A stretch of DNA of 46,961 nt from a virus. The notes beneath the pieces are model-generated. The model did not search any database. It saw only the letters and a program-made list of their open reading frames with translations, and was not told the origin of the DNA. Shown here in pieces: positions 5,471 through 46,961 of this stretch (the first letter of the stretch is position 1; the number at the start of each line of letters is the position of its first letter). Location of the stretch: positions 1 through 46,961 of the IMG/VR virus record IMGVR_UViG_3300036045_000023; one strand, 5' to 3'. The translations under genes were made by a program, and so were the position numbers.

Positions 5471-5480
5471 CCCGAGACGC

Positions 5481-8557: not shown

Positions 8558-8580
8558 CGAGTCCTCCCTCAGTTAGCCCG

Positions 8581-8609: not shown

Positions 8610-8619
8610 TACAAAAAAA

Positions 8620-8814: not shown

Positions 8815-8830
8815 GCCTGACTACTAGCAC
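8802..8830 (+). promoter_or_regulatory. Possible plus-strand early promoter, TTGGCT-N17-TAGCAC
   Basis: TTGGCT at 8802-8807 and TAGCAC at 8825-8830 are 17 nt apart, upstream of the first plus-strand gene. The match to the local TTGCC-type promoters is moderate, and the element overlaps the 5' end of the minus-strand 8814 gene. The divergent layout supports a promoter here more than the exact bases do. Confidence 0.35.
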
Positions 8831-8845
8831 GATTTGCGGCCGCAT

Positions 8846-9366: not shown

Positions 9367-9560
9367 TGCTCCTCCGCGTCTACACCCGCCTGCGCGGCGG
9401 CGAGCACTGGACGCGCTCGAAGCCGCTGCCGTGGCAGCGAGCCGAACGCCTCGCCGCGCGTCTCGCGGCCGGTGGCGAGTTCGATGTCGAGATCCGGCAG
9501 TCGCCGCGCTCGCGCGCCATCGCCGGCATCCGCGACGCCATCAGGAGGAGGTCCGCGTGA
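9366..9560 (+). CDS. Small hypothetical protein
   Basis: A 64-aa basic protein (MLLRVYTRLRGGEHWTRSKP, then LPWQRAERLAARLAAGGEFD, then VEIRQSPRSR). A strand-helix-strand pattern is likely. The start overlaps the previous stop (TGATG) and its own stop overlaps the next start (GTGA). No family is recognised. Confidence 0.65.
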   Translation: MLLRVYTRLRGGEHWTRSKPLPWQRAERLAARLAAGGEFDVEIRQSPRSRAIAGIRDAIRRRSA

Positions 9561-9746
9561 CCACCCCCGATCGCATCCTCCGCCGCGTACCGCGCCGACA
9601 CGTCGCCGCGCATGGTGCTCGCGCTGCTCAAGGCCGGCGTGCTGGTCGAGGTCGGTCGCGCTCCATGGGGCGTACCGGCCACGGTGCCGATGTGGCTCAC
9701 GCGGCGACAGAAGAAGGGTCAGCAGGTCGTGGCGGTAGCGGGGTGA
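9557..9746 (+). CDS. Small hypothetical protein with an apparent one-base frameshift
   Basis: The GTG at 9557 overlaps the previous stop. Reading straight through gives Arg/Gly-rich text that runs into the methyltransferase frame. Removing one C from the C5 run near 9554-9570 gives MTTPIASSAAYRADTSPRMV, then LALLKAGVLVEVGRAPWGVP, then MWLTRRQKKGQQVVAVAG. That frame ends in a TGA at 9746 overlapping the methyltransferase start (GTGA). The second reading resembles a short winged-helix or beta-rich domain and fits the local overlap style, so I take it as the real gene. Confidence 0.5.
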
Positions 9747-10489
9747 TCCATCACTGCGACTGGCGCGACCTTCTCGCGCACGTGCCCGAGTGCGACGCGC
9801 TGATCGTGGACGCGCCGTACAGCGATGTCACCCACAACGGACATGGAACGCTGGATCGGCATGGCACTGGACTTCCGCCAACGTATGACGGCGGTCGGCG
9901 ACGGGAACTCAATTATAGTCACTGGTCCCCCGACGACGTGTCCGCCTTCGTCTCGGCGTGGTCTCCCCGTACGCGAGGCTGGTTTGTCACCATCACCGAT
10001 CACGTGCTCGCGCCAGCTTGGAATGACGCGCTTGAAGCTATCGGCCGCTACGTCTTCTCGCCGCTCGCCTACGTCGCGCCCGGCTCTCGCGTTCGCCTGA
10101 GCGGAGACGGTCCCGCGCAATGGTCGTGCTGGATCGTCGTCGCGCGACCGAAGTCGCGCACGTTCCAGCGCTGGGGCACTCTCCCCGGTGCCTACGTCCT
10201 GCCGCCGGGCGAGGGCGGCAAGCTCCCCGTTGTCGGCGGAAAGGCGCTGTGGCTCATGGCCCGGCTCGTCGAGGACTACTCGCGCGCTGGTGACCTCGTG
10301 GTCGATCCATGCTGCGGCGCGGGCACGACCCTGGTTGCGGCTGCGCTCACAAACCGGCGCGCGGTCGGGGGCGACATCTCGGCCGAGCACATCGACATCG
10401 CGCGCAGGTGGATGGCGAATCCGACGCGGCCTGCGCCTAGGACTGACCGCGCGGATCCAGCGCAGCCGTCGTTGTTCGGTGCCGCATGA
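9743..10489 (+). CDS. DNA methyltransferase, beta-class (N6-A or N4-C)
   Basis: A 248-aa protein from the GTG at 9743. The catalytic motif IV appears as DAPY at 23-26 and precedes the SAM-binding motif I DPCCGAGTT at 188-196, the order of beta-class amino-methyltransferases. GGDISAEHIDIARR follows as motif II. The spacing and lack of a separate target domain fit a solitary phage methyltransferase. It probably protects phage DNA from restriction. The C-terminus QPSLFGAA matches the QxSLF sliding-clamp-binding pattern. Longer upstream readings cover other genes. No cognate endonuclease is adjacent. Confidence 0.88.
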   Translation: MIHHCDWRDLLAHVPECDALIVDAPYSDVTHNGHGTLDRHGTGLPPTYDGGRRRELNYSHWSPDDVSAFVSAWSPRTRGWFVTITDHVLAPAWNDALEAIGRYVFSPLAYVAPGSRVRLSGDGPAQWSCWIVVARPKSRTFQRWGTLPGAYVLPPGEGGKLPVVGGKALWLMARLVEDYSRAGDLVVDPCCGAGTTLVAAALTNRRAVGGDISAEHIDIARRWMANPTRPAPRTDRADPAQPSLFGAA

Positions 10490-10662
10490 CCCTCCGCCGC
10501 GTCCGCCTCCGCGTCCTATTCTGGTGCCACCTCTACGACCTCGGCGCGCTCATGGACCACTATGGCCGCCGGCTGTGCCTGTACGCCATCGAGCGCGCTG
10601 GGAACGCTGCGTACGAGGGAACAGAGTTGCCCGACGTGCCGGATGAGGAGGCGCCGTTTTGA
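10486..10662 (+). CDS. Small hypothetical protein
   Basis: A 58-aa protein: MTLRRVRLRVLFWCHLYDLG, then ALMDHYGRRLCLYAIERAGN, ending LPDVPDEEAPF. The ATG overlaps the methyltransferase stop (ATGA) and its TGA overlaps the TTG of the next gene. It is basic at the N-terminus and acidic at the C-terminus. No family is recognised. Confidence 0.65.
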   Translation: MTLRRVRLRVLFWCHLYDLGALMDHYGRRLCLYAIERAGNAAYEGTELPDVPDEEAPF

Positions 10663-11234
10663 CCGACCACAGCGCCTGGTTTATCTCGAATCGCTTCGAC
10701 CGTCGCGCGTTACCGCTAGCTGACCGGCACTACAACCGGCGGAAGCCAGGCTCGCCGCAGTTCGTTCCGCCGGGGCGTTGTCTCGTACTGCTCACTGAGT
10801 CGGCCGACGGACTATGGGTGACATCGTGGCCATTCGCTGAGTACGTACGCCACGATTGGCCCGGCGCCTGGATCAACTCACTCTTTCGCAACGAATCGCC
10901 CATTCTCGCGTCGGACCTGATCCGTCAGGCAGTCGCGGCAACGGTTGCGTTCTACGGGCCGGCACCCGAGCCGCACGGGCTCATCACCTTCGTTGACGCA
11001 GCCAAGGTCCATCGCAAGCGAGAACCGGGACGCTGCTACAAGAAAGCTGGCTTCCTGCGCCCGCCATGCCCACGCTGCGGCGGGTATGCGGCGAAGACGA
11101 CATGCCGCGTCTGCGGTGACGGGAAGGCGCGCACTGCTGGCGGGCTAATCGTGTGGCAGTTGCCGCCCGATCGCATGCCGGACCCTGCACCAGCGCGGAC
11201 CTGGCAGACATTTCTCTTCGGTGCCGCGTTTTGA
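10659..11234 (+). CDS. GNAT-like protein, possibly Mom-like DNA modification, with zinc ribbon
   Basis: A 191-aa protein from a TTG overlapping the previous stop. ALPLADRHYNRRKPGSPQFV at the start and LITFVDAAKVHRKREPGRCY followed by KKAGF (residues 108-131) resemble the acyltransferase-like fold of Mom-type phage proteins. Mom modifies adenines to block restriction. A CPRC...CRVC zinc ribbon (C137, C140, C149, C152) is inserted after KKAGFLRP. The C-terminus is QTFLFGAAF, similar to the methyltransferase tail. Its neighbour being a DNA methyltransferase supports a modification role. The family call is from recall only. Confidence 0.55.
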   Translation: MTDHSAWFISNRFDRRALPLADRHYNRRKPGSPQFVPPGRCLVLLTESADGLWVTSWPFAEYVRHDWPGAWINSLFRNESPILASDLIRQAVAATVAFYGPAPEPHGLITFVDAAKVHRKREPGRCYKKAGFLRPPCPRCGGYAAKTTCRVCGDGKARTAGGLIVWQLPPDRMPDPAPARTWQTFLFGAAF

Positions 11235-11410
11235 CCGACCCCCGCGCCTGGCCGCCGCCGGTCGGATGCACCGTCGTATGGCGCAACGGCATGCCCGTCG
11301 GAAAAGTCGTCGGCTATCACGGCGCACTTGCCTTCGTCATGGTCGACGACGAAACGTTCGCCGTGCCGACCATCTCGCTGCGGATTGTGCCGAGGCCGGA
11401 GCCACGCTGA
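11231..11410 (+). CDS. Small beta-rich hypothetical protein
   Basis: A 59-aa protein from a TTG overlapping the previous stop (TTGA): MTDPRAWPPPVGCTVVWRNG, then MPVGKVVGYHGALAFVMVDD, then ETFAVPTISLRIVPRPEPR. It looks like a small SH3-like or beta-barrel domain. It has no recognised family and is coupled to the helicase downstream (TGATG). Confidence 0.65.
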   Translation: MTDPRAWPPPVGCTVVWRNGMPVGKVVGYHGALAFVMVDDETFAVPTISLRIVPRPEPR

Positions 11411-13062
11411 TGCAACCCACCCTACGCCCGTACCAGGTCGATGCCGTCGACCGACTGCGGGCGCTCATTGCTGCCGGCCAGACCCGCCTGTGTCTCGTTG
11501 CTCCGACCGGATCGGGAAAGACAGTCATGGCGTCGGCGATGATTCACGGTGCCGCCCGCAAGGGAAAGCGCTGCTTATTCTTGGCCCACCGGAAGGAACT
11601 GATCGATCAAACCGTCGACAAGCTCCACCGATGGAGCGTTCGACCCGGCGTTATCATGGCTGACGATCCGCGGCGCGACGACTACCTACCGGTCCAGGTC
11701 GCCAGCGTCCCAACGCTCGCGCGTCGCCTGAATCGGCTCCCGCCTGCCGAGCTTGTCGTCGTCGACGAGTGCCACCACGCCACGTCAGACTCATACCGCA
11801 AAGTCATCGATGCCTACGCGCACGCCGTCGTCATCGGCATGACAGCTACCCCATGGCGCACTGACCGCAATGGACTCGCCGACATCTACACGGCCTCGGT
11901 CCTCGCGGCCACGCCGGCCGAACTCATCGCGTCCGGCGCGCTGGTGCCATACGACGCGTTCGCCTACGACGCGCCCGACCTGCACGAGGTCCGCGTCACG
12001 ATGGGCGAGTACCACCAGAAGGATCTTGCACTCGCCTGCAACACAAAGATCCTCGTCGGCTCCGTCGTGCGCGAGTACACGACACACGCCGCCGGCCGGC
12101 GCGCGATCGTATTCCCGGTCAACATCGAGCACAGCCATTCCCTCGTCGACGAGTTCCGCGCCGCTGGATTTTCAGCCGCACACGTCGACTGCAACACCCC
12201 GCGGGACGAACGCGGCGCGGCCATGGAGCGATTCCGCCGTGGTGACCTGCTCGTGCTGTCCTCGGTCGGCGTCCTCACCGAGGGATTCGACGTTCCCGCG
12301 GCGGAGGTCTGCATCCTAGCGCGGCCTACGAAGTCGCTGTCCCTTCACCTCCAGATGATCGGGCGCGTCCTGCGTCCCGCGTCTGGCAAGGACCGCGCGC
12401 TGATCCACGACCACGCGGGAAACGTCATGCGGCACGGATTCCCCGACGACGATCGCGACTACAGCCTGACCGCAACCCCGAAGTCGGTCGTCGAACGGAA
12501 CACGTGCCCGGCGTGTCATGCCGTGTTTGCGGGGCTGCGGCGGTGCAACGGTACCGGCCGGTGCGAGCGCCCGCCCGAGGAGCCGCAGGCGTGTATCGCC
12601 GGACCGATCGGTCTCACGTCGCCGTCCCACTGCCCGGCCTGCAACGAGTTCATCCAACTGCCCGAAGAGCGCGAGTCGAGCGGTGGCGGCCCCGAACTGG
12701 AGCACACCGAAGGGCGCCGGCTGTCAAAGGAGCAGATCCAGGAACTGCGCTCGCGCCGCAAAGGCGCCGGCCTGCGCGACCTGACCGACCTCCAGTTGCA
12801 GCGCGCCGCGAGTGCCACCCGCATTCAGAAAGCCGCCGAGTTCCTTCGCCTGTGTCGCGTCGCTGAAGCGAAGGGTTTCAAGAAGGGCTTCGTGAGCCAC
12901 CAGTACCGCAACGTGTTCGGCGTGTGGCCTCGGTTCGCCGACGGCGAACTTGACGGCGTCGAGCCGGCGCAGAGGCCATTCTTCCCGCTGGAGCCGCGCG
13001 CCGACCGGTCGGTGCGCCGTGCCGGTGCGGATCAACCGAGCGGACCATCACGCCACAGGTGA
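11410..13062 (+). CDS. SF2 DNA/RNA helicase (DEAD/H-like, DECH box)
   Basis: A 550-aa protein from the ATG at 11410. Motif I is APTGSGKT (31-38), motif II DECH (119-122), motif III TAT (145-147) and motif VI QMIGRVLRP (315-323). LRPYQVDAVDRLR near the N-terminus is the Q-like region. After the RecA2 domain a four-Cys cluster (CPACHAVF...CPACNEF, residues 366-420) suggests a zinc module, followed by a helical C-terminus. The layout matches phage SF2 helicases of the replication or recombination block. The last 20 residues overlap non-conserved sequence ahead of the nuclease gene. Confidence 0.92.
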   Translation: MQPTLRPYQVDAVDRLRALIAAGQTRLCLVAPTGSGKTVMASAMIHGAARKGKRCLFLAHRKELIDQTVDKLHRWSVRPGVIMADDPRRDDYLPVQVASVPTLARRLNRLPPAELVVVDECHHATSDSYRKVIDAYAHAVVIGMTATPWRTDRNGLADIYTASVLAATPAELIASGALVPYDAFAYDAPDLHEVRVTMGEYHQKDLALACNTKILVGSVVREYTTHAAGRRAIVFPVNIEHSHSLVDEFRAAGFSAAHVDCNTPRDERGAAMERFRRGDLLVLSSVGVLTEGFDVPAAEVCILARPTKSLSLHLQMIGRVLRPASGKDRALIHDHAGNVMRHGFPDDDRDYSLTATPKSVVERNTCPACHAVFAGLRRCNGTGRCERPPEEPQACIAGPIGLTSPSHCPACNEFIQLPEERESSGGGPELEHTEGRRLSKEQIQELRSRRKGAGLRDLTDLQLQRAASATRIQKAAEFLRLCRVAEAKGFKKGFVSHQYRNVFGVWPRFADGELDGVEPAQRPFFPLEPRADRSVRRAGADQPSGPSRHR

Positions 13063-16757: not shown

Positions 16758-17133
16758 CGGGCCGGGCTATGAGATCCGAGTGGGGTCGGCGAATCGGATC
16801 GCAGCCGGGTCGGCGAATCGGATCGCGCTGAGCGTGGTCCTGTTGCTGGTCAGCGTGGCCGGCGGGGGTAGCGCTGCACGAGCGGCGGGACCCGATGGAC
16901 TCTCCTCGTCCTCACCTGAGGCGCGAGGAGACCAGGATGGCCAGGAGGAGGACCGCGATGCACCGGCTGCAGGACCTGGTGCGGTTGCACCGACTGAAGA
17001 CGGGGGCGCGCGAGACGGCGCGGCTCCTGGGGATGGGACCGAATACGGAGCGGCAGTACCGGGAGGCGATCGCAGCGGCGGGGCTGCTCGACGGAGCGCC
17101 CGAGACGTTGCCGGCGGTGGGACGCGGCCGGTG
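16739..17133 (+). mobile_element. IS21-family-like left-end fragment
   Basis: The segment starts near TGATGCCGCCCGAATTG, which looks like an insertion-sequence terminus. It has two 20-bp direct repeats (16783-16802 and 16807-16826, GGTCGGCGAATCGGATCGC), like the transposase-binding repeats at IS21 ends. It then encodes the N-terminus of an IstA-like transposase. It ends abruptly at 17133, where a copy of internal terminase sequence begins. No istB and no right end are present. The exact left border is inferred. Confidence 0.55.
16783..16826 (+). repeat. Two 20-bp direct repeats at the IS21-like end
   Basis: Exact copies at 16783-16802 and 16807-16826 are separated by 4 nt. Repeated blocks inside the ends are typical of IS21-family elements, where IstA binds them. 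Confidence 0.8.
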
Positions 17134-17218
17134 GCAGGATCCAGGTAGCGCTGGTAAGTTCGAGGCTGACTACTACATTCGCAAGCCAGGACAAGGACCG
17201 TTCAGAGAGCGCGGTTGA
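16958..17218 (+). pseudogene. IstA-like transposase N-terminus fused to a terminase fragment
   Basis: MHRLQDLVRLHRLKTGARET, followed by ARLLGMGPNTERQYREAIAA and AGLLDGAPETLP, is the helix-turn-helix start of IS21-type IstA proteins. After residue 59 the frame switches to QDPGSAGKFEADYYIRK, which is identical to residues 342-358 of the large terminase. It ends PGQGPFRERG. The DDE catalytic domain is missing. The frame is open upstream to 16895. Its TGA overlaps the terminase TTG, so it may still serve for translational coupling. Confidence 0.6.
17134..17186 (+). repeat. 53-bp exact direct repeat, copy 1
   Basis: Identical to 18237-18289 inside the large terminase gene, 1.1 kb downstream. This copy is fused to the IS21-like fragment. 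Likely sources are a recombination event at an insertion site or a mis-join in assembly. Confidence 0.95.
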
Positions 17219-18546
17219 GCGAACTCCGCTGGGAGCCATCCCCGCGTCAGCGACGATTCCTGGCATCGTCTGCGTTCGAGGCGTTGTATGGCGGCGCGGC
17301 AGGTGGCGGGAAGAGTGATGCGCTGGTCATGGGCGCGCTCCGCCACGTCGACAAGCCAGGGTACAACGCGATCATCTTCCGGCGCACGTTCCCTGAGCTC
17401 CAAGGACAAATAGTGCCGAAGTCGCGAGAGTGGTACCCGGTTGCGCGTGGGAGGTACAACAGCGTCGAGCACTGCTGGACATTCCCAAGTGGCGCGCGCA
17501 TCCACTTCGGGCACCTGCAGCACGAGGACGACGTCTACCGCTACCAAGGGTGGGAGTTTCAGTACGTCGGGTTCGACGAACTGACGCACTTCCTTGAGTC
17601 GCAGTATCGGTATCTTCTGTCCCGAGTCCGCTCGTCGCACGGTATCCCAGTACGCGTGCGCAGCGGGACCAACCCAGGCGGCGTTGGACATGAATGGGTG
17701 CAGCGTCGATGGGGACCGTGGCTTGACCCGCAATCGACGGTGCAGGCCGAACCTGGACAGGTCATGCATTACCGGAACACGCAGGCCGGCGAGGAGTGGT
17801 GTGATCGCGGCGATGGCACACTGACCAGGGTGTTCATTCCTGCGAAACTGGAGGACAACCCATACTTGTTCGGCGCCGACCCTGGTTACCGGGACCGGCT
17901 GATGGGGCTCGACCGGGTCACACGCGCGCAGCTCATCGACGGCAACTGGCTCATTCGACCCGCCGCTGGTCTTCTATTCCAGCGCGGGTGGTTCAAGATG
18001 CTCGACGCTGCACCGTCGGACGCATTGCGCCGTGTGCGTTACTGGGACCGCGCTGCGACGGAGGAGAGCGGCAACAACGACCCTGACTGGACCGTGGGTG
18101 TTCGCATGGCGATGGTCGAGGAGGGGTCGTACATCGTCGAGGACGTGGTTCGACTGCGCGGCACGCCGAAGCGGGTAGAGGGCGCGATCGTCAACACGGC
18201 CGAGGTGGATGGCAGGGGAGTCGAAGTGCACCTGTCGCAGGATCCAGGTAGCGCTGGTAAGTTCGAGGCTGACTACTACATTCGCAAGCTCAGCGGTTAC
18301 GTGGTCAAGGCCGCGCCTGAGACCGGCGACAAAGTGAGCCGAGCCCAACCGTTCTCGGCGCAGGTTGAGGCTGGGAACGTTTCTATGGTTCGCGGGCCAT
18401 GGAACGAACCGTACCTCCAGATCCTGGAGGCGTTCCCGACCAATGGTGTCCATGACGACGACGTCGACGCCAGCTCGGGCGCTTTCGCGGTCATGCAGCG
18501 TAAGAAGCGTGGACTCGAGCAGTGGGGAGCGGTGACGATTGGCTAG
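17215..18546 (+). CDS. terL: Terminase large subunit
   Basis: A 443-aa protein from a TTG at 17215 overlapping the preceding stop. Walker A is GGAAGGGKS (26-34). Walker B is FQYVGFDE with D121/E122. The RNase H-like nuclease domain shows RYWDRAATEE (near D278), LSQDPGSAGK (D343) and DDDVDASSGAFAVM (about 414-427). Length and motifs are complete, so it should be active despite the disturbed upstream DNA. It packages DNA into proheads through the portal. Confidence 0.95.
   Translation: MSELRWEPSPRQRRFLASSAFEALYGGAAGGGKSDALVMGALRHVDKPGYNAIIFRRTFPELQGQIVPKSREWYPVARGRYNSVEHCWTFPSGARIHFGHLQHEDDVYRYQGWEFQYVGFDELTHFLESQYRYLLSRVRSSHGIPVRVRSGTNPGGVGHEWVQRRWGPWLDPQSTVQAEPGQVMHYRNTQAGEEWCDRGDGTLTRVFIPAKLEDNPYLFGADPGYRDRLMGLDRVTRAQLIDGNWLIRPAAGLLFQRGWFKMLDAAPSDALRRVRYWDRAATEESGNNDPDWTVGVRMAMVEEGSYIVEDVVRLRGTPKRVEGAIVNTAEVDGRGVEVHLSQDPGSAGKFEADYYIRKLSGYVVKAAPETGDKVSRAQPFSAQVEAGNVSMVRGPWNEPYLQILEAFPTNGVHDDDVDASSGAFAVMQRKKRGLEQWGAVTIG
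18237..18289 (+). repeat. 53-bp exact direct repeat, copy 2 (inside terminase)
   Basis: This native copy codes for QDPGSAGKFEADYYIRK in the terminase nuclease domain. Copy 1 is at 17134-17186. Confidence 0.95.
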
Positions 18547-37601: not shown

Positions 37602-38206
37602 AAACGCCTCAGCAAATAGCCGACTCCTACGGTGTAGAATACGTCTCGGACTGGGCCGCGCGCCTGCGCACGCGCATCTATGAGCAGTTCAAGGGCCTCG
37701 TGACGTGGGGCCACTGGGTCGATGACGTACTCGGGCCACAGTTCCAAGATCTCGAGGACGCGCTGATGTCCTTGGTCACGCTGCCTTCCATTGACGACTC
37801 GGAAGGCGTGCAGCTCGATACGATCGGGCGTCACGTTGGGCAGCCGCGACTTGTACTCGGTGACGTGACCTATCGCCTGTACCTGAAGGCCAGGATCGCG
37901 GCGAACAACTCAGCGGGCGACCCCGAGTCACTGTACCGAGTGTTCCGGGCGCTGTTCGGCGTTGCCGCCGGATTCGTTGTGCGCACGAGTCAGCCGGGGA
38001 CGAAGACATTCACGGTGCGTGTCCTCAGCGCCATAACTCAAGCGCAGGCACTGATCGGCGCGCAGTTCCTCGGAGACGCCAAGGAAGCCGGTGCGCGTGG
38101 CATTGTAGAATGGCAACCGGTCGCCGATGCGTTGCTGTTTACGTACGATGGCACTACGGCGCAGGGCTATGATAACGGCGTGTACGCCGGAGCGGAGCAG
38201 GCATGA
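37598..38206 (+). CDS. Baseplate/tail protein after J (DUF2612-like)
   Basis: A 202-aa protein from an ATG overlapping the J stop: MKTPQQIADSYGVEYVSDWA, then ALMSLVTLPSIDDSEGVQLD, then TIGRHVGQPRLVLGDVTYRL. LDxIGxxVGxxR.....Y+.yLkarI is the DUF2612/tail I-like pattern. It links wedge to fibre. Confidence 0.8.
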   Translation: MKTPQQIADSYGVEYVSDWAARLRTRIYEQFKGLVTWGHWVDDVLGPQFQDLEDALMSLVTLPSIDDSEGVQLDTIGRHVGQPRLVLGDVTYRLYLKARIAANNSAGDPESLYRVFRALFGVAAGFVVRTSQPGTKTFTVRVLSAITQAQALIGAQFLGDAKEAGARGIVEWQPVADALLFTYDGTTAQGYDNGVYAGAEQA

Positions 38207-38994
38207 GCATCCCCCCTCGTCCAACAGGCTACGCTGCGTGGGCCAGCGGCGTTAGCGGTCACATCGTCGAGCCGTCGCAGTCGCAGAAGAATACCGGCTG
38301 GCAGGCTGGACAGGCACCACCGGCGAGCTACCAGAACTGGCTCGATGGACTGGGTTACCGCTGGCAGGCGTGGACAGATGCGGCGCTATTCGGTGGCGGG
38401 TTCGTCGCCAAGGATGACTTTACCGGGAACCTTGTCGGCGGAGGACCATTCCAGTGGAATGGCTCGGGTATGAGCTGTGTAAGCGACGCGAGTGGTGGAG
38501 GGTGGGGGGCGCTACTCATGCTCACGAACGCCAGCATAACGAGCGCGGGCGTCCAGACAGCCGAGATCCCGGTCATGACCGGCTTCTGGCAATACGAGGC
38601 TCGTTTCCGCAGCCAGGGACCGACGCACCTGGGTAACTTCTCCGTCGGAGTATCGGACGCGCTGGGTCCCAGCGGCGCGGTAGCGAATATGGTGAGCGTT
38701 TCCAGCGGCATGAACTTTGCCCTGATTACCAACCCCACTCTGAGCGGCATCAGTGGCCTTGTCAGGGTTGACCTCGGTGTACGCCCAGGACCGGGATACC
38801 ACCGAGTACTGCTCGACCGAAGAAACAACACCCTCACGTGCGCGATCTACGCGCCCACCGGCCTGGCGGTAACGGCGTCGGCCGCTGCCCCTCACTCGCA
38901 ATTGCGAGGGCGCGCGCTGGCGACGCTGACCAACGTGAACGGACCGAACGAGGTATTGCTAGACTACCTGGGGATCGCCGGGGACCGGCGTTAG
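38203..38994 (+). CDS. Tail fibre or receptor-binding protein candidate
   Basis: A 263-aa protein: MSIPPRPTGYAAWASGVSGH, then PSQSQKNTGWQAGQAPPASY, then QNWLDGLGYRWQAW. The phrase AWxxG....I..P...Q+..GWxxGxxPPAxyxNWL is typical of fibre N-terminal regions. The rest is a beta-sandwich-like domain. Its TAG overlaps the TAA of the lipoprotein gene on the other strand by 4 nt. Confidence 0.75.
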   Translation: MSIPPRPTGYAAWASGVSGHIVEPSQSQKNTGWQAGQAPPASYQNWLDGLGYRWQAWTDAALFGGGFVAKDDFTGNLVGGGPFQWNGSGMSCVSDASGGGWGALLMLTNASITSAGVQTAEIPVMTGFWQYEARFRSQGPTHLGNFSVGVSDALGPSGAVANMVSVSSGMNFALITNPTLSGISGLVRVDLGVRPGPGYHRVLLDRRNNTLTCAIYAPTGLAVTASAAAPHSQLRGRALATLTNVNGPNEVLLDYLGIAGDRR

Positions 38995-39443
38995 CGTGTG
39001 CAGTCGGTGCCCGTCGCCTGCCACCACAGCCCACGGTCCGGCGCGGTCAGCTTCTCGGCGCCGACGTGCTCGGCCATGACGCCGGGGCCTTCGTGGTGCC
39101 CGAGCCCGAACGCGTGGCCGATCTCGTGTGCGAGCGTCACGCGTAAGGACGCGGGACGTGCTGCCACGTGGGGCGTCACCAGGATCGTGGCACCGCTCGA
39201 GCTCCACGAGTAGCGCCCGGCGCCCTGAACCTCTGCAACGTTTACCTCGCGAATGGGCAAGCCACCGTCACCAAGGCGGACGCGGGCGCCGCAGTCGTCC
39301 CACGTGCGCGCCGCTAGTTCAGTCGCCTGACGCTGCTCTGCCGTCCACATCGCCGGGACGGTGACCAGGGACTCGCCGGTGGGCGACAGGTACGGCGCGC
39401 AGCCTGCGACGACGAGTATTATTAGGCAGGCGCTAGAACGCAT
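38991..39443 (-). CDS. Matrixin-like zinc metalloprotease lipoprotein
   Basis: A 150-aa protein from the ATG at 39443. It has a short signal peptide with lipobox VAGC (Cys15), so it should be exported and lipid-anchored. The catalytic motif is HEIGHAFGLGH (106-116), the HExxHxxGxxH of matrixins/metzincins, with GVMAEHV as a Met-turn candidate (M123). All zinc ligands are present. It lies opposite to the virion genes with its own promoter. It may cleave host or competitor surface proteins or act in lysis or superinfection exclusion; this is inference. Confidence 0.85.
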   Translation of the reverse strand: MRSSACLIILVVAGCAPYLSPTGESLVTVPAMWTAEQRQATELAARTWDDCGARVRLGDGGLPIREVNVAEVQGAGRYSWSSSGATILVTPHVAARPASLRVTLAHEIGHAFGLGHHEGPGVMAEHVGAEKLTAPDRGLWWQATGTDCTR

Positions 39444-39450
39444 AGTTGCA

Positions 39451-39479
39451 TTTGTAGCACACCCGAACTCGCACGGCAA
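39451..39479 (-). promoter_or_regulatory. Promoter of the lipoprotein gene, TTGCCG-N17-TACAAA
   Basis: TTGCCG (39474-39479), 17 nt, TACAAA (39451-39456), then 7 nt and the ATG at 39443, with no Shine-Dalgarno. It is interleaved with the plus-strand late promoter at 39462-39497, so the two should exclude each other. Confidence 0.6.
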
Positions 39480-39503: not shown

Positions 39504-39527
39504 GTGAGCCTACTCGGACAGGTGTGA
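39504..39527 (+). CDS. Possible 7-residue leader peptide MSLLGQV
   Basis: GTG AGC CTA CTC GGA CAG GTG TGA starts 6 nt after the -10 box, and its TGA overlaps the GTG of the next gene (GTGA). A ribosome binding a leaderless 5' end could translate it and re-initiate at 39524, which has no good Shine-Dalgarno. This is inferred from spacing only. Confidence 0.4.
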   Translation: MSLLGQV

Positions 39528-40432
39528 CCGTGGCGATTCGTGTATCCGCCTACACCGTCGCGGTCGGCACTGCTCAACAGCTCGAGATGGCGGTTGGGGA
39601 AGATCGTGCATTTCGCTTGACTTTCACGGACGGCGGATCTGCGGTCGACATGACCTCGGCGCAGGCGATCGTGCTGACGATCAGGAATCCCACCAACAAC
39701 CAGTTGGTCGTGGCCAGGTCCTACAGCGGGTTCGTCAGCGGCACTGGCAGTGGGGGTAACCCGTACTTTCAGATCCTCCAAGCCGACACAAACTCGTTTG
39801 CCGACGGTGCATACGTAGTTGACGTCGACTTCACCGACTCGAGCGGGTACAAGTGGCAGGCTCTCGTCGAGAGCCCGTTCCTGCTCCTGCCACGCGTCGG
39901 CCAGCCGTCCGATCCGCTCACCACGCCGCCGGCCGTGCCCGTGGTCTATGGCCTGCGCTGGTTGGGGTCGTGGACCACGCCGAGCGGTGGCTACCTCGTC
40001 AACGACTCGGTCACGGCGCAGGATGGGAGCTTGGGCGCGACCTCGGTCAGTTCGTTTCGCAACACCGTCCTTGGCAACACGCTGTACCCCGTTAACGCGT
40101 CCCTGGTACCGGCCAGTGGCTGGCAATACGTCGGGCAGCACGGCGGGCAGGGAATCCGCCCCGGTGTCTACGTGACGTTCTCAGGCGCGACCGGCGCGGC
40201 GCGGGCGGTGTGGCCGACAACGCTCGGCATCACAGGCGTCAATACTAATAGGCAACTCGTTGCGACCGATGGCCGCGTCTATTCCATCCTTCCCGGCAAC
40301 CCGATCGCGCCCGCGGACGAGGCGGTGCAGGTGTGGATGGGGTCCAGCGCAATCACGGCTTCTGGCGGCGTCCTGTACTCCAATGCCGCGTTCACTGGCT
40401 GGTGCCGCGTCTCGCTCGATCCTAGCGCGTGA
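39524..40432 (+). CDS. Baseplate upper/fibre-associated protein
   Basis: A 302-aa protein: MTVAIRVSAYTVAVGTAQQL. EMAVGEDRAFRLTFTDGGSA and ADGAYVVDVDFTDSSGYKWQ in the first 120 residues look like the BppU-type beta-sandwich at the base of fibres. A later region (SSFRNTVLGNTLYPVNASLV, WQYVGQHGGQGIRPGVYVTF) may bind a receptor. The function is a medium-confidence guess. Confidence 0.6.
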   Translation: MTVAIRVSAYTVAVGTAQQLEMAVGEDRAFRLTFTDGGSAVDMTSAQAIVLTIRNPTNNQLVVARSYSGFVSGTGSGGNPYFQILQADTNSFADGAYVVDVDFTDSSGYKWQALVESPFLLLPRVGQPSDPLTTPPAVPVVYGLRWLGSWTTPSGGYLVNDSVTAQDGSLGATSVSSFRNTVLGNTLYPVNASLVPASGWQYVGQHGGQGIRPGVYVTFSGATGAARAVWPTTLGITGVNTNRQLVATDGRVYSILPGNPIAPADEAVQVWMGSSAITASGGVLYSNAAFTGWCRVSLDPSA

Positions 40433-40481: not shown

Positions 40482-40622
40482 ATGGGCAAGAGCGACGTGT
40501 TACAGATTCGCCTCGACCCCGAGTTGAAACGGCTGATCGAATCAGCGGCGACCACGGACGGGCGCCGGATCAGTGACTGGGCTCGGCGCGTCCTCGAAGC
40601 GGCGGCGAAGGCATTGAAGTAA
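40482..40622 (+). CDS. Small ribbon-helix-helix protein
   Basis: A 46-aa protein: MGKSDVLQIRLDPELKRLIE, then SAATTDGRRISDWARRVLEA. Strand (VLQIRLDP) plus two helices makes an Arc-like ribbon-helix-helix. It directly precedes the glycosyltransferase (TAA then ATG, no gap) and may autoregulate that block. The 49 nt before it (from 40433) hold no clear promoter. Confidence 0.75.
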   Translation: MGKSDVLQIRLDPELKRLIESAATTDGRRISDWARRVLEAAAKALK

Positions 40623-43271
40623 ATGCCACGTCTTTCGCTGTGCATGATCGTCAAGAACGAGGAAGAGAACCTTCAGCGTTGTCTGCCCACGATCGTCCCC
40701 CATGTCTCCGAGTTCATCGCGGTCGACACGGGATCCACCGACAACACGCGCGCTGTCCTCACGCAATGGGGCGCCAGCGTCTACGAATACACGCCGCGCA
40801 CTAACCCAGAAGGCTTCTTCGTCGACAACGACAAGAACAACGCGCAGTGGGGAGCGCCACCGCCGTACTCGGGTGAGATCGCGTTCGCCGACTTCGCCGC
40901 GGCCCGCAACGAATCGTTCAAGCACGCAACCGGCGATTTTATCCTGTGGTTGGACGCCGACGACACCGTAGAGGGTGCCAAGCACCTCCCCGCGATCGTA
41001 GCCGACCTCGAAGCGCGCGGGCTCGACTTCGGGTTTCTCGCCTACGACTACGCGCGCGACCATCTCGGTCGCGTCTTCTACCGGCAGTGGCGCGAGCGAA
41101 TCGTCCGCCGCGATTCGGCCGACTGGCGCAACGCGGTCCACGAGGTGCTACTTCCTCGGCGCGGCGTCACGCCGGTCCGGTACACGCAGACGAAGATCGT
41201 CCACCACCGGAAGCCGGACCGCCCCGGTATCCCGAACCGCAACTACAAGCTGCTGCTACGCAACCTGTGGCAGGTGAAGACGGCGAACCCAGACGCGCCG
41301 ATCGACCCGCGCACGTTGTTCTACCTCGGACAGGAAGCGCGCTTCATTGAGCCGTTGAAGGCGGTGGGGTTTTACGAGGAGTATCTCAAATCGTCCGGCT
41401 GGCCCGAGGAGCGTTCAGCCGCGCACTCCGCGCTGGGGCAGTTGTCCGAGATGGGCGCACTCGGGTTGCCTCCAGACGAAGCATTGGCGCGCGCAGAGCG
41501 GCACTATGCGGTGGCGCAACTCGAGCAGCACGACAACCCGGACGGCTACTTCGGCATGGCCAGGATCGCGGTCCTGCGCAAGCGATGGCTGGATGCGGTC
41601 CGCTACTCGGAGCAGGGATTCAAGATCGGCAACACCGACTCGATGCTGGGCGCGAATCCGCTCGATCGGCTGTACAGGCCGCACGTCTACTACAACGAGG
41701 CGCTGTTCAATCTTGGACGCCTAGACGAGGCGATCGAGAGTTGCAAGGCCGGACTGGCCGTGTGCCCCGATGACCCCGGCGTGCCCGGCGGCGCACCAGG
41801 GATGCTGCGGCACAACCTCACCGCGTTCGAGAAGGAAAAGCAGAGACAGATGAAGCCACCCGAGAAGCCGGCACTGGTCGAGTTCTCCAAGAACGAGGAC
41901 GTGCACGCGCCGCCGGCGTCGAATATCCCGCGAGATGCGCTTGTGATCTGGGCCATGCAGCTATGGAAACAGAACATGGCGGCGAACGACACGTCGCGCG
42001 CACAGGCGTTGCTGGACGCGCTGCCGATGGTGGTCGAAGCAGATCCGGTCATCGAGAAGATGCGGCAGGCGACACGGGATAGATGGTGGCGGCGCCATGA
42101 TCCACTCGACGCCGGTTCCGTTGGCGCGATCGTCCCGGAACGAGGATCAGTCGTCATCTACACCGGTCCCGCGTTCGAACCGTGGGATCCGACCACGCCA
42201 AACGCGAAGGGCATTGGCGGCAGCGAGACGGCGGCGATCGAGATGGCGCGCGAGTTCCAAAGACTCGGCTACGCCGTGACCGTGATCGGCGACTGCCCTG
42301 GACGAGAGGGCATCTACGACAGCGTCCGGTACCAGCACCACGCGGCGTTCACCGGCGCCGACTGCGACGTGTTCATCTCGTCTCGGCGACCGGACATGTG
42401 CGGTCCAGCGATTCGCGCGCGGCTGAAGCTTCTCTGGGTCCACGACATCAACGTCGGTCCGCCGTCGCCGCAGATGGAACGGTGGCTACTGGAGTGGGAT
42501 CGCATCCTGTGCCTGAGCCAGTGGCACAAACGGTTCTTCTGCGAGTCGTATCCTACGCTCGATCCGGCTCGCGTCATCGTCACGCGCAATGGGATCGACC
42601 CGGAGCGGTTCCGGGTTGAGCATCCAAAGACGAACCGGCTCATCTTCTCCTCGTCGCCGAATCGGGGACTGGACACGCTGCTTCACTTGTTCCCGGTCAT
42701 CCGCCAGCACATTCCCGATGCGGAGTTGCACATCTACTACGGCTTTGACTGCTGGGAGACGTTCGCGCGACAGCGCGGTAATCAGTCCGAACTTGCCGAG
42801 ATCCAGAGGTACAAGACAATGATCGCCGACGCCGAGCAGCGCGGCGGTGTGAAGTGGCACGGGCGAGTCAGTCAGCGCGAACTGGCCGATGCATTCATGC
42901 GGTCGAAGGTATGGGCGTACCCGACGCTGTTTCACGAGACATCATGTATCACGGCAATGGAAGCTCAGGCGGCCGGCTGCGTCCCGGTCGCTACCCGCGT
43001 GGCCGCGCTCGCAGAGACGGTGAAGCACGGAACGTTGATTGATCTCGGTCGTACGCATGAGCAGCAACAGCAAGCGGTGGGCACATTCGTTGCCGAGGTG
43101 ATCCGCATGCTGACCGACGAGCCGTACCGTAAGCGGTACGCCGACGCTGGTCGCGAGTGGGCGCGGTCGTCGCTATCGTGGCGGGCGCTGGCCGAGGACT
43201 GGTCGCAGATGTTTGAGCGACTGACAGCGGACGTGGAGAGGAACCCGATCGCGATGTGGAGATCCGCATGA
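40623..43271 (+). CDS. Two-domain glycosyltransferase (GT2 plus GT4-like)
   Basis: An 882-aa protein. Residues 1-250 are a GT2 domain: LSLCMIVKNEEENLQRCLPT, AVDTGSTDNTRAVL and LWLDADDT (DxD near 110-113). Residues about 270-420 are helical, TPR-like. Residues about 490-860 look like a GT4 domain: IGGSETAAIEMAREFQRLGY, FSSSPNRGLDTLLHLFPVIR, then SKVWAYPTLFHETSCITAME (the E of the donor-binding loop). It may build glycans on virion proteins, on host surface or on modified DNA. Two catalytic domains in one chain suggest successive sugar additions. Confidence 0.88.
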   Translation: MPRLSLCMIVKNEEENLQRCLPTIVPHVSEFIAVDTGSTDNTRAVLTQWGASVYEYTPRTNPEGFFVDNDKNNAQWGAPPPYSGEIAFADFAAARNESFKHATGDFILWLDADDTVEGAKHLPAIVADLEARGLDFGFLAYDYARDHLGRVFYRQWRERIVRRDSADWRNAVHEVLLPRRGVTPVRYTQTKIVHHRKPDRPGIPNRNYKLLLRNLWQVKTANPDAPIDPRTLFYLGQEARFIEPLKAVGFYEEYLKSSGWPEERSAAHSALGQLSEMGALGLPPDEALARAERHYAVAQLEQHDNPDGYFGMARIAVLRKRWLDAVRYSEQGFKIGNTDSMLGANPLDRLYRPHVYYNEALFNLGRLDEAIESCKAGLAVCPDDPGVPGGAPGMLRHNLTAFEKEKQRQMKPPEKPALVEFSKNEDVHAPPASNIPRDALVIWAMQLWKQNMAANDTSRAQALLDALPMVVEADPVIEKMRQATRDRWWRRHDPLDAGSVGAIVPERGSVVIYTGPAFEPWDPTTPNAKGIGGSETAAIEMAREFQRLGYAVTVIGDCPGREGIYDSVRYQHHAAFTGADCDVFISSRRPDMCGPAIRARLKLLWVHDINVGPPSPQMERWLLEWDRILCLSQWHKRFFCESYPTLDPARVIVTRNGIDPERFRVEHPKTNRLIFSSSPNRGLDTLLHLFPVIRQHIPDAELHIYYGFDCWETFARQRGNQSELAEIQRYKTMIADAEQRGGVKWHGRVSQRELADAFMRSKVWAYPTLFHETSCITAMEAQAAGCVPVATRVAALAETVKHGTLIDLGRTHEQQQQAVGTFVAEVIRMLTDEPYRKRYADAGREWARSSLSWRALAEDWSQMFERLTADVERNPIAMWRSA

Positions 43272-44263
43272 GGTGGTTAGTCACCGGCGGATGCGGCGTC
43301 ATCGGCTCCCTCTTCTCCCGCCGTATGGTCGAGCGCGGCGACGAGGTCCAGATCATCGACCACTGTCCCGAGCCGCGTAACGAGTGGCTAGCCGAGCAAC
43401 TGACCACGCTGGGTGTGACCGTGCGGCGGTACCGGCTGGAGTCGTACGAGCGTGAGGAACTGGCGTCGCTGCTAGACGACGTGGATGCGGTACTGCACGC
43501 GGCGGCGCACACCGGCATCCCGCACAGCGTGGTCGATCCTGACGACGACTGGCGCAGCAACGTGGACGCGACCAAGACACTTCTCGACGCGCTGAGGATG
43601 GAGCCGAAGCCGACGGTAGTTCTGTCCAGCGTGAAGCCGTTCAGCGTGCAGCGCTTGCCGTTAACTGAAGACTCGTTGCTACTCCCGGACGAGCCGTACG
43701 CGGCCTCGAAAATGAGCCAGGTAGCACTCTGTCAGGCGTACGGGCGCAGCTACGGCGTGCCCGTCATTGCGTACCGGTGCAGCAACCTATACGGTCCGGC
43801 GCCGCCGCACGGTCCGAGGCACGGCTGGCTTACGTGGTTCTGCGTCTCGGCGGCGATGGGTCGTGCGTTAGAGGTACAGGGCAGTGGTGATCAAACCCGG
43901 GACATGCTCCATGCCGATGACGTGACCAGTGCCGTTGTCGCCGCGATCGAGGTCATGCAGCGAAAGCGCACCGTTGCGGCAGAGCCTTGGCATCCGGGAG
44001 AGACGTTCAATCTCGGTGGCGGACTGTGGAATAGCATCAGCGTGAACGAAGCGGCAAAGATACTGCGCGAGATGACCGGCGTGGATGTGGTGCAGGGACC
44101 GCCGCGCTCGATGGACGACGACCGCGTATTCGTGTCGACCGCAAAGATGGAGGCGGCGACTGGTTGGCGGCCTAGCGTTGCCGTGGTCGACGGGATTAGG
44201 GACGTGCTGCAGTGGGCGCAGGAGAATCAAGCTGAACTGCGTCGACTGTACGAGGGCGTATGA
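43268..44263 (+). CDS. NAD-dependent sugar epimerase/dehydratase
   Basis: A 331-aa extended SDR protein from the ATG at 43268 (ATGA overlap). Rossmann motif GGCGVIG (7-13), catalytic LSSVK near 119-123 and YAASK at 144-148, and NLYGP downstream are all present. The substrate is probably a nucleotide sugar (UDP-glucose epimerase-like). Pairing with glycosyltransferases suggests donor-sugar supply. Confidence 0.9.
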   Translation: MRWLVTGGCGVIGSLFSRRMVERGDEVQIIDHCPEPRNEWLAEQLTTLGVTVRRYRLESYEREELASLLDDVDAVLHAAAHTGIPHSVVDPDDDWRSNVDATKTLLDALRMEPKPTVVLSSVKPFSVQRLPLTEDSLLLPDEPYAASKMSQVALCQAYGRSYGVPVIAYRCSNLYGPAPPHGPRHGWLTWFCVSAAMGRALEVQGSGDQTRDMLHADDVTSAVVAAIEVMQRKRTVAAEPWHPGETFNLGGGLWNSISVNEAAKILREMTGVDVVQGPPRSMDDDRVFVSTAKMEAATGWRPSVAVVDGIRDVLQWAQENQAELRRLYEGV

Positions 44264-44814
44264 AGTTCAACCTCGCCTGCGGCACCGACGTACGCGACGG
44301 CTGGATCAACTGCGATGTGGTCCACAAGTGGCCACTTGCCGACCGACCATGTGACGTAATCTGGGACGCGCGTACTGACTGCATCCCGTTCCCCGACGGC
44401 AGCGCGGACGAGGTCTACGCCGGATACCTCCTGCTCCACCTGTCGCCGCACCACCACGACCGCGTGCTGCGGGACATCCATCGCGTGCTCAAGCCGGGCG
44501 GCGTGTTCACCTGCGGCGAGGTGGACATGCGCGAGGTCATATCACGCTGGCTCATGAACCCGCGCGATGCTCGGCTATCGGAGTTGATTTGGGGCGAGCA
44601 AGGCACCCTCTCGCCTGAGCAGGAAGCTCAGCTCGGACCGGGCGGAGTTGCGGAACAGCGGCGGCTGATGGACTACGACAAGCACTGCCACGGCTACGTC
44701 GAAGAGACGTTGCGCGAGGCACTGCGGCAGGCTGGGGTCACGCAGGCGGCGCAGCGCGTGCGCATTCACGCCGAGGAGGTCTGGTACGAGATGACGCTGA
44801 AGGTGGTGCGCTAG
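44260..44814 (+). CDS. SAM-dependent methyltransferase (class I)
   Basis: A 184-aa protein: MKFNLACGTDVRDGWINCDV (motif I NLACG), then IPFPDGSADEVYAGYLLLHL, then HRVLKPGGVFTCGEVDMREV. This is the small class I fold seen in sugar-cluster methyltransferases (FNLACGxxxxxGWINxD). It probably methylates a sugar or glycan end. Confidence 0.85.
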   Translation: MKFNLACGTDVRDGWINCDVVHKWPLADRPCDVIWDARTDCIPFPDGSADEVYAGYLLLHLSPHHHDRVLRDIHRVLKPGGVFTCGEVDMREVISRWLMNPRDARLSELIWGEQGTLSPEQEAQLGPGGVAEQRRLMDYDKHCHGYVEETLREALRQAGVTQAAQRVRIHAEEVWYEMTLKVVR

Positions 44815-46850
44815 TGCCATTTCTTAGCCTGATCGTACCCACGATGCGCTGCGGTGGACTCAACGTTCTTTTTGATAGTCTCGCCCGATCGACCTTCACT
44901 GACTTCGAGATGGTGCTCGTAGACGGTCTGTACCAGCACCGCGCCGACATCGTACGCCGCGAGGCTTGGTCCCGCTTCCTGCGTGTAGCCCACGTAGAGC
45001 CGAGTCCGAATCCGTTCCCGAGCGTTGCGTTCTGTCAGTACAGCAACACGGGGCTCATTCACGCGTCCGGCGAGGTGGTGCTATTCCTCGTCGACTACAC
45101 GCGCGTGCCGCCGGACCTGCTCGGCAAGCACGCCGAGTTTCACCGCGCGGACACGACCGGGCGCAAGGGCATGATGGGGCCGCATCGGTACGTGCGTCTC
45201 GACGTGCACCGGGACTGGCCGAGGTACGCGCCCGGCGACGTGGACAAGTACGAGGCAGACGTGCAAGCGGGCGACCTCGACGAATTCATATTCTCGATCG
45301 GAGACGCGACCGATCAGCCGTCCGCTCCGTGGCGTGTCGACGGCGGCGCGCTGGCTCAGCCCGACGCGGATCCCAAGCTGCGGATGAACGCCGGACCTAT
45401 TACGGCAGACTTCTTCCACGCCAAGAACGAATCTGTGCGGCTGGAGCGCTGTCTCGAAATCAACGGGTGGGACGAAGCACTCGACGGCGCTCATGTCCAC
45501 CAAGACAGCGACTTTGCCGACCGCCTGAGCCTGCGCGCTGGCGTGACATGGACACTGGACCCATCGGCGGTGGTCGACATCGCCAACCCCCGCGGCGTAT
45601 TCCCGTTCGCGCGGCGCACGAGGTCCTGGGAATCGAACCGCGAGCGGTGGCAGAAGGCGAAGGCGGCTGGGTATCCGACGCCGAACAGCTACAGCCTGCG
45701 GGAGAGGAGGACTACGCCGATGGCGACGGCGCTCCCCACTGTTGCCGTATCCCCGCTGCGCATAGCAATGGTGTACGGCGAGTTCTCGACGGCGATCCAT
45801 GGACCGTTCGATCCGCCGAACCTACACAACGCGGCGCTGACCGGCAGCGAGTCTAGCTTCTTTAATTTGGCCCGCACTATGGCCGAGCGCGGTCACCAGG
45901 TGGTCGCGTTCTGCGTCTGCCCCGAGCCGTACGAGCATCCAAGCGGGCTCGTGATAATGCCGATCCAGGCACTGCGCGGTTTGCCGCAGATGCAGTTGGA
46001 AGCAGTCATTGCCTGGAACGAGCCCGACTATCTCCAGTTCGCGCCAACGGATGTGCTGCGGGTAGTGGATCAGCAACTAAACGATTTTGGCTATTGCCGG
46101 CACCCAGACTGGCGTGCGTTGGTGGACCTGTGGGTGAGCCCTTCGCGTCACCATCTCGACCACTTGATCGCGACCGAGGGCGTTCCTGGTGAGCATTCGT
46201 TCGTTGTGCCGAACAGCGTCGATCTCGACCTGTTTTGTGGACCAGAACCGGAACGCCATCCACACCGCGCCGTTTGGTGCTCGTCGCCCGATCGCGGACT
46301 ACATCACCTCCTGAGCATGTGGCCAGACGTTCGCGCGGTTGTTCCCGACGCCGAGTTGCGCGTGTTCTACCGCCTCGGTCCGTGGCTGGAACGCGTGCGC
46401 GACATGGACGACGAGGTTGGACGACGCGCGCGGTACATCGAGTACGCGCTGCCGCGGTTGCGAGTGCACGGCGTGACCGTTGTAGGCCCGGTGGCGAATG
46501 CGCAGATGGCCACGGAGTTGCGCTCGGCGAAGCTACTGGCATACCCGTGCGACCCCGTGCGCTACACCGAGGGATTCGGCTGCTCAGTGCTCGACGCGGC
46601 GGCGGCTGGGTGCGTGCCGCTGATCTCGGATGCCGACGCGCTGCCGAGCGTTCACCGCTCGGGGTGCATCGCGATTCAAGGCAAGCCTGCGGACCGGCGA
46701 GAGGCATGGATCAAGTTCATCGTCGGCATCCTGCAACACGATGCGATTCCGCCGGACGATCAGGAGCGGATGCGGCGGCATGCCCTGCGGCACTCGCGGG
46801 AGGCGGTAGCGGAGCAGTGGGAGAGGCTGATTCGCGGGAGGATCGCGTGA
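44814..46850 (+). CDS. Two-domain glycosyltransferase (GT2-like plus GT4-like)
   Basis: A 678-aa protein from a GTG (TAGTG overlap). The N-terminal 300 residues have MPFLSLIVPTMRCGGLNVLF and then FTDFEMVLVDGLYQHRADIV, with an HQDSDFADRLSLRAG block typical of GT2. From about residue 303 (an internal Met) it reads LRIAMVYGEFSTAIHGPFDP, NAALTGSESSFFNLARTMAE and, later, TEGFGCSVLDAAAAGCVPLI, the GT4 acceptor and donor motifs. It is distinct from, but parallel in plan to, the 882-aa enzyme. Confidence 0.86.
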   Translation: MPFLSLIVPTMRCGGLNVLFDSLARSTFTDFEMVLVDGLYQHRADIVRREAWSRFLRVAHVEPSPNPFPSVAFCQYSNTGLIHASGEVVLFLVDYTRVPPDLLGKHAEFHRADTTGRKGMMGPHRYVRLDVHRDWPRYAPGDVDKYEADVQAGDLDEFIFSIGDATDQPSAPWRVDGGALAQPDADPKLRMNAGPITADFFHAKNESVRLERCLEINGWDEALDGAHVHQDSDFADRLSLRAGVTWTLDPSAVVDIANPRGVFPFARRTRSWESNRERWQKAKAAGYPTPNSYSLRERRTTPMATALPTVAVSPLRIAMVYGEFSTAIHGPFDPPNLHNAALTGSESSFFNLARTMAERGHQVVAFCVCPEPYEHPSGLVIMPIQALRGLPQMQLEAVIAWNEPDYLQFAPTDVLRVVDQQLNDFGYCRHPDWRALVDLWVSPSRHHLDHLIATEGVPGEHSFVVPNSVDLDLFCGPEPERHPHRAVWCSSPDRGLHHLLSMWPDVRAVVPDAELRVFYRLGPWLERVRDMDDEVGRRARYIEYALPRLRVHGVTVVGPVANAQMATELRSAKLLAYPCDPVRYTEGFGCSVLDAAAAGCVPLISDADALPSVHRSGCIAIQGKPADRREAWIKFIVGILQHDAIPPDDQERMRRHALRHSREAVAEQWERLIRGRIA

Positions 46851-46961
46851 AAGTAATTTATCTGGCGATACTTGGGGTTCTGGTGTGCGGCTGCGAAGCA
46901 CAGACTGTGGTCTCGCCGGAGCATATGCCGACGCAGAAGGCTCCTGTCACAATACGCAGGG
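46847..46961 (+). CDS. Start of a lipoprotein gene (partial)
   Basis: A GTG at 46847 overlaps the previous stop: MKVIYLAILGVLVCGCEAQT. The signal peptide and lipobox LVCGC predict an exported lipoprotein. It is cut off by the window end. The start of a lysis spanin or a surface-exclusion protein are options, but too little is visible to choose. Confidence 0.6.
   Translation, partial: MKVIYLAILGVLVCGCEAQTVVSPEHMPTQKAPVTIRR

Follow-up and report, generated by a model that had tools for sequence, protein, structure and literature searches.

Phage-encoded glycosyltransferases are reported to glycosylate capsid and tail-tube proteins in mycobacteriophages Che8, Corndog and Myrna (Freeman et al. 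2023, as cited in PMC12363180, PMC11256854 and PMC12619734). In bacteria, GmaR is described as transferring N-acetylglucosamine to flagellin (PMC9638930), and FlmG as belonging to a cytoplasmic pathway in which its tetratricopeptide repeat (TPR) domain binds the flagellin acceptor (PMC7591256). When glycosyltransferase genes are met in metagenomic phages, they are usually read as modifiers of DNA or of the host envelope. Here we analyse an IMG/VR record of 46,961 bases (IMGVR_UViG_3300036045_000023, positions 1 to 46,961, class linear; hereafter the window), whose genes for terminase, portal, major capsid protein (MCP), sheath, tape measure, baseplate hub and baseplate wedge are those of a contractile-tailed phage. 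Directly 3′ of two fibre-like genes the window carries a glycan cassette (40482-46850) of five open reading frames (ORFs) in the same direction. We consider it likely that their products make up a soluble cytoplasmic pathway that places a short oligosaccharide with a methylated sugar on a virion protein, most likely the fibre or baseplate protein encoded just upstream. The cassette and the ORF that begins at its 3′ end are as follows.

40482..40622, + strand: ribbon-helix-helix (RHH) protein, 46 aa (Pfam TacA1, 23.7 bits, cut-off 21; PHROG Arc-like)
40623..43271, + strand: glycosyltransferase GT1, 882 aa (Pfam Glycos_transf_2 1.8e-15, Glycos_transf_1 5.7e-15)
43268..44263, + strand: extended short-chain dehydrogenase/reductase (SDR), with an ATGA overlap with GT1 (Pfam Epimerase 5.6e-42)
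44260..44814, + strand: class I S-adenosylmethionine-dependent methyltransferase, 184 aa (Pfam Methyltransf_11 3.1e-9)
44814..46850, + strand: second glycosyltransferase, 678 aa (Pfam Glyco_trans_1_4 3.7e-7)
46847..46961, + strand: first part of a small lipoprotein-like ORF that runs off the contig end (from sequence; maximum hydropathy 1.89 near the N-terminus)

Below, GT1 always denotes the product of 40623-43271 and "the second enzyme" that of 44814-46850, while GT2 and GT4 denote glycosyltransferase families. An initial annotation had named these five cassette genes and described overlapping starts behind the RHH gene, and both statements are borne out by the ORF list, the Pfam matches and the junctions, at each of which a stop and a start abut or overlap. 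The RHH stop TAA is followed at once by the ATG of GT1 (40620-40625); ATGA overlaps join GT1 to the SDR (43268) and the SDR to the methyltransferase (44260); the methyltransferase and the second enzyme meet in TAGTG (44812-44816); and the stop of the second enzyme overlaps the start of the lipoprotein-like ORF in GTGA (46847). The ORF list starts the SDR at 43256, the ATG at 43268 being the probable true start. The stretch 40482-46850 is thus a single translationally coupled run, of which the RHH protein is probably the regulator. GC content at the three codon positions of the four enzyme genes (0.65-0.70, 0.42-0.47 and 0.78-0.84) is like that of the structural genes.

GT1 consists of a GT2 domain of the GT-A fold, a TPR block and a GT4 domain of the GT-B fold. 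A profile of 44 viral GT1-family sequences (A7) relates the N-terminal half to GmaR (1.2e-38), to SunS of prophage SPbeta (6e-27) and also to TPR proteins; with the single GT1 sequence, Pfam TPR stays under its cut-off. The AlphaFold2 model (mean predicted local distance difference test score, pLDDT, 89.9; predicted template modelling score 0.59) is confident within domains, with the placement of the domains uncertain, and has the helices of the TPR block at residues 206-410. The top Foldseek rows are the TPR-bearing OGT and SPY (SPINDLY), with a poor global root-mean-square deviation (rmsd), followed by SunS/ThuS and the GT4 enzymes GlgM/PimA. Residues 507-873 superpose on 6kih (VIA) with a Z of 32.7 and an rmsd of 2.9 Å over 334 residues, the VIA rows covering residues 502-878 alone and saying nothing on the N-terminal half. 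A DxDD motif (D111, D113, D114) is invariant in 44/44 sequences, and in the EX7E-type motif E772 is present in 44/44 and E780 in 31/44. GT1 therefore has the DxD-bearing GT-A domain followed by TPR helices of the GmaR/SunS type, together with the GT-B fold and EX7E-type motif of retaining GT4 glycosyltransferases; it falls outside the SunS equivalog TIGR04195 (30.6 bits, cut-off 350). We propose from these sequence features that GT1 is a protein glycosyltransferase that both initiates and extends a glycan. The GT1 model also matches entries of BFVD in Foldseek, including GT2-containing proteins of the giant viruses CeV-01B, Indivirus and Pithovirus, and large DNA viruses may, to judge from these model-based matches, share similar multi-domain glycosyltransferases.

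The nearest solved structures to the SDR are CDP-tyvelose 2-epimerase (3.4e-29), UDP-glucose 4-epimerase and dTDP-glucose dehydratases. Its catalytic residues S124/S125, Y148 and K152 (numbered in the 335-aa ORF) are conserved in the related locus L001. An Asp-Glu pair after the catalytic Thr is a feature of dehydratases such as RmlB; the SDR has Val126-Lys127 in its place, a pair kept in L001, and scores 122 bits against the dTDP-glucose 4,6-dehydratase (RmlB) cut-off of 365.1. Because of the Val-Lys pair, an epimerase is likelier than a dehydratase, and the SDR is a probable nucleotide-sugar epimerase. The methyltransferase occupies the same place in relatives (56% identity in L001, 59% in L257); beyond Methyltransf_11 its matches are nonspecific, with a weak one to the D-glucose O-methyltransferase 6uv6 (E=0.005), and we propose that it may act as a sugar O-methyltransferase. 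The second enzyme is 58% identical to its L001 homologue and 59% identical, in two segments, to sequence in the record of L248. In its GT4 domain EX7D replaces EX7E, and an N-terminal GT-A domain is weakly indicated by NCBIfam EpsD (6e-9, residues 4-114) and by Pfam GT2 in the L001 homologue (1.8e-5); its structure prediction (pLDDT 44.5) is too poor for a fold reading. Hence the initial annotation of two two-domain glycosyltransferases holds as to the two enzymes, while GT1 has three parts and the GT-A domain of the second enzyme is weakly backed.

In the proposed pathway, (i) the SDR would epimerise a host nucleotide sugar, (ii) the GT2 domain of GT1 would transfer the first sugar to a Ser/Thr (possibly Cys) of an acceptor held by the TPR block, (iii) the GT4 domain of GT1 and then the second enzyme would extend the chain, (iv) the methyltransferase would methylate a sugar, and (v) the modified subunits would be assembled into virions. 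We infer the acceptor, the linkage residue, the identities of the sugars and the order of steps from the gene content and its parallels. Two proteins encoded immediately upstream are the candidate acceptors.

39524..40432, + strand: tail/baseplate fibre protein, 302 aa (PHROG phrog_1084, a function-unknown family, E=7e-6, residues 20-125)
38203..38994, + strand: tail-fibre-like protein, 263 aa (PHROG tail fibre phrog_2126, E=1.5e-4; N-terminal part kept in relatives)

The 302-aa fibre would be the most likely acceptor and the 263-aa fibre the second candidate. Ser and Thr make up 18.9% of the 302-aa fibre, and of 11 window proteins counted the baseplate wedge alone is higher (19.3%), so that composition does not single out the fibre. 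A collagen acceptor in the window itself is ruled out: in no frame do six or more GXY triplets follow one another. Between the two fibre genes, antisense to the tail genes (38991-39479, − strand), lies an ORF with a lipoprotein-like start for a putative matrixin/reprolysin-like metalloprotease (Peptidase_M10 E=1.6e-4, slightly under the cut-off).

The association of GT1 with virion genes extends well beyond the window. We compiled 74 viral loci: 72 were taken from the 79 that an alignment search kept, and L004 (the Manatee Spring phage) and the window were added. Both halves of the enzyme lie in one ORF in 57 of them. An MCP gene ends at most 2.5 kb upstream of GT1 in 32/74 loci, with two MCP families represented (phrog_1328 and phrog_1005), and an MCP lies farther upstream in four more (L049, L051, L062, L074). 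Thirteen loci have a collagen-like gene no more than 5 kb upstream of GT1, and the window fibre brings this class to 14/74. Among 115 upstream neighbours, the PHROG tally contains the major head protein phrog_1328 in 21 and collagen-like tail families in 10. The commonest families among 115 downstream neighbours are glycosyltransferase (7), epimerase (6), methyltransferase (5), a second glycosyltransferase family (4), neck protein (4) and tail-fibre families (3), with phrog_1328 outside the 25 commonest. The MCPs that adjoin GT1 are diverse (17 sequences, median identity 32%). In a FastTree phylogeny of 64 sequences the window groups with the loci linked to collagen genes and away from those linked to capsid genes, and sugar-tailoring genes are found in 12/14 fibre loci, 12/28 unassigned loci and 0/32 capsid loci.

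Cellular DNA gave a different picture. In 149 genomes of one bacterial phylum, that of the Paenibacillus record L096, 46 genomes have matches at E<=1e-40, and the full fusion is found in 0/69 match rows, each of which is limited to one half. A scan of cellular contigs (genome_contigs) confirmed at least 451 loci, and among the best 80, which were kept, it gave a full-length match in L085 alone, as two separate ORFs. Within the DNA searched, which for cells means one phylum and these best 80 loci, the results suggest that the GT1 fusion is limited to viruses.

The cassette itself is conserved behind related tail genes. GT1 relatives of 52-59% identity occur in two other records (L001, L002), and a search seeded with the baseplate wedge returned eight loci. 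Two of these (L249, L250) are the records of L001 and L002, and L248 is new, with GT1 and the SDR in place. L246 (= L006) is a 100% twin of the window that ends at window position 39011, before the cassette, and is uninformative on it; L247, L251, L252 and L253 have no cassette match, but in each of them the contig stops within about 1.5 kb of the wedge. The 302-aa window fibre is 48-51% identical over about 205 residues to the fibre proteins encoded ahead of GT1 in L248, L249 and L250, its N-terminal part being common to the collagen-shaft fibres of these relatives, where the upstream fibre shaft is collagen-like with Thr-rich repeats (L001, L002, L248). The order in L001 is fibre, RHH, GT1, SDR, UDP-sugar dehydrogenase, methyltransferase, second-enzyme homologue, collagen fibre and FkbM methyltransferase, and the record of L248 has these genes in the same order, its methyltransferase being 59% identical to that of the window; in L002 the fibre genes are followed by an RHH-like gene, GT1, dehydrogenase, a GT4 gene and a collagen fibre, then by methyltransferases and an epimerase. 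An RHH-like gene stands directly ahead of GT1 in all four records; that of L002 (9501-10004) runs past position 10001, where GT1 starts, and the window RHH protein scores 16.1 bits against the profile of its relatives (best of 1000 shuffles, 9.6). The initial annotation would have been undone by host DNA joined to the contig, and this is ruled out, since GT1 follows homologous baseplate and fibre genes in three independent IMG/VR records. The GT1 of L001 is encoded in two ORFs of 524 and 553 aa that overlap (9890-12722), which may reflect a sequencing error, gene decay or a genuine frameshift. L002 encodes a protein with a GDSL lipase/acylhydrolase domain amid its fibre genes (8378-9481; homologue in L257), possibly a tail glycan esterase.

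Several observations weigh against a virion target. Twenty-eight of the 74 loci lack an assigned structural neighbour, seven of these having less than 3 kb upstream, and the MCP count is biased because its hidden Markov models were built from glycosyltransferase neighbours; the PHROG tally is free of this bias. In 79/80 collagen-fibre loci GT1 is absent nearby, so collagen fibres do not need GT1. Threonine occupies the Y position of collagen triplets more often in 16 loci with the glycosyltransferase (median 0.445) than in 79 collagen loci where no GT1 relative was detected (0.295; p=0.0076). There is broad overlap between the two ranges, and the control set still contains near-duplicate loci; the difference suggests a fit with O-glycosylated shafts, is suggestive at most as proof of glycosylation and has no bearing on the repeat-free window fibre. 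That fibre being devoid of collagen repeats, its role as acceptor is weakly argued by analogy with relatives. Finally, in pelagimyophages the glycosyltransferases of the hypervariable region around the tail-fibre genes have been described in print as modifiers of the host O-chain (PMC7029224).

This last precedent belongs to the main rival explanation, in which the target of the cassette would be a surface glycan of the infected cell, such as its O-antigen or capsule, changed so as to block superinfection or re-adsorption to debris, and which we regard as unlikely. The resemblance of the GT4 domain of GT1 to enzymes that build lipids or polysaccharides (PimA, HepE), the EpsD match of the second enzyme and the UDP-sugar dehydrogenase of relatives would all suit it. 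The initiating enzyme, however, is of the GmaR/SunS type with TPRs, and linkage to capsid genes in 32 loci is unexpected for an envelope modifier. The five cassette proteins are also devoid of typical membrane-span segments (top 19-residue hydropathy mean 1.45), and neither a membrane flippase nor a membrane-anchored glycosyltransferase, as in Gtr-type O-antigen modification, is among the cassette family hits. Much less probable is a contribution to auxiliary metabolism, in which the enzymes would glycosylate small molecules or feed host polysaccharide or metabolite pools; the SDR and methyltransferase families are generic enough for such a role, but placement beside fibre genes is conserved in four records and the full fusion occurs in viruses and in none of the bacterial genomes searched. 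Hypermodification of phage DNA, with glycosylated bases as in T4, is the least credible, for although phages are known to glycosylate their DNA, as is also reported for other virus-encoded enzymes (Pyle et al. 2024, as cited in PMC12619734), and the window encodes an N6/N4-type DNA methyltransferase (9293-10489), the thymidylate-synthase family PF00303 is found in 0/1 record (linear and possibly incomplete) and in 9/14 control genomes, no DNA-glucosyltransferase family is among the cassette family hits, and the TPR block and the fibre/capsid linkage have no role in DNA glycosylation. A Tet/JBP hydroxylase search gave zero matches in the record and in its control alike, and does not weigh on this reading either way.

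Among the three targets that the initial annotation had offered for a phage-specific oligosaccharide (virions, host envelope or DNA), a virion protein is favoured because of the GmaR/SunS-type initiating enzyme and the linkage to capsid and fibre genes, and DNA is disfavoured; the oligosaccharide itself is supported by the two glycosyltransferases, the SDR, the methyltransferase and the conservation of the coupled cassette. A broader proposal, which we advance tentatively and with less than even confidence, is that GT2 initiation, TPR grip and GT4 extension in one polypeptide define a virus-restricted family devoted to coating virions. Its capsid lineage would act nearly alone, and its fibre lineage would have recruited epimerases, dehydrogenases and methyltransferases to make methyl-capped glycans on Thr-rich collagen-like or related fibres.

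In many other environmental phages, related cassettes follow genes for capsid proteins or collagen-like fibres. If virion glycosylation is their function, phages with glycosylated virions could be predicted from sequence alone by a GT2-TPR-GT4 gene next to one for an MCP or a collagen-like fibre, with consequences for how phages adsorb, how stable their particles are and how antibodies recognise them, and soluble initiating-plus-extending enzymes would become available for protein glycan engineering. Should the proposal of a virus-restricted family be right as well, virion glycosylation would be common in uncultured phages, beyond mycobacteriophages.

The left end of the window carries a type IV CRISPR-Cas-like locus (274-6594) of minus-strand genes and an array.

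5614-6594, − strand: Csf1-like (PADLOC 5e-21)
4275-5297, − strand: Csf2-like (PADLOC 2e-44)
3649-4278, − strand: Csf3-like (PADLOC 2e-37)
2682-3611, − strand: unassigned 309-aa gene
697-2694, − strand: Cas12f/Cas12u1-like, 665 aa (PADLOC 7e-45)
274-686: array of six repeats of about 36 nt, spacing 65-75

A phage that carries a type IV module together with an array and a Cas12f-like gene is worth separate study. Nearby, a minus-strand gene made of 15-nt repeats encodes a pentapeptide-repeat protein (6887-7291; PF00805 6.6e-23). A 59-nt direct repeat has copies at 17128-17186, ahead of the terminase ORF, and at 18231-18289, inside it; they are 97% identical and lie 1103 bases from each other, possibly as a duplication or as the trace of an insertion.

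Among known systems, GmaR of Listeria and SunS/ThuS are nearest to GT1, being soluble enzymes with a GT-A GT2 domain followed by TPR helices and matching it significantly in both sequence and fold. They lack its C-terminal GT4 domain, and GT1-type phage enzymes, unlike them, adjoin capsid or fibre genes, often with tailoring genes. OGT and SPINDLY, which belong to family GT41, share with GT1 a TPR block followed by a GT-B domain; they have no GT2 domain and are only 11-13% identical to it, at an rmsd above 20 Å. BclA-type bacterial collagen is glycosylated, and the Thr-rich collagen shafts encoded near glycosyl- and methyltransferases in relatives of the window resemble it by description, whereas the window fibre has no such repeats. 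FlmG combines, as GT1 would, acceptor binding by TPRs with a cytoplasmic glycosyltransferase acting on a surface-filament protein (as described in PMC7591256); in contrast to GT1 it is a bacterial enzyme of pseudaminic acid with a single GT-B domain after the TPRs and no GT2 domain.

With mycobacteriophage virion glycosylation the likeness lies in phage-encoded glycosyltransferases, which in the window would likewise act on virion proteins. Che8 gp108-110 are separate genes near the right end of that genome, unlike the fused GT1, and orthology with GT1 is unconvincing by hhalign (E 0.42, 0.08 and 0.0022 for gp110, gp109 and gp108, probability at most 12.8%). The titles and abstract openings found, from a search with most subscription journals outside it, describe neither a GT2-TPR-GT4 family nor its occurrence beside genes for capsids or fibres. 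That phage enzymes glycosylate virions is already known, and the machinery predicted here appears to differ from the described systems in its architecture and in its repeated linkage to capsid and fibre genes.

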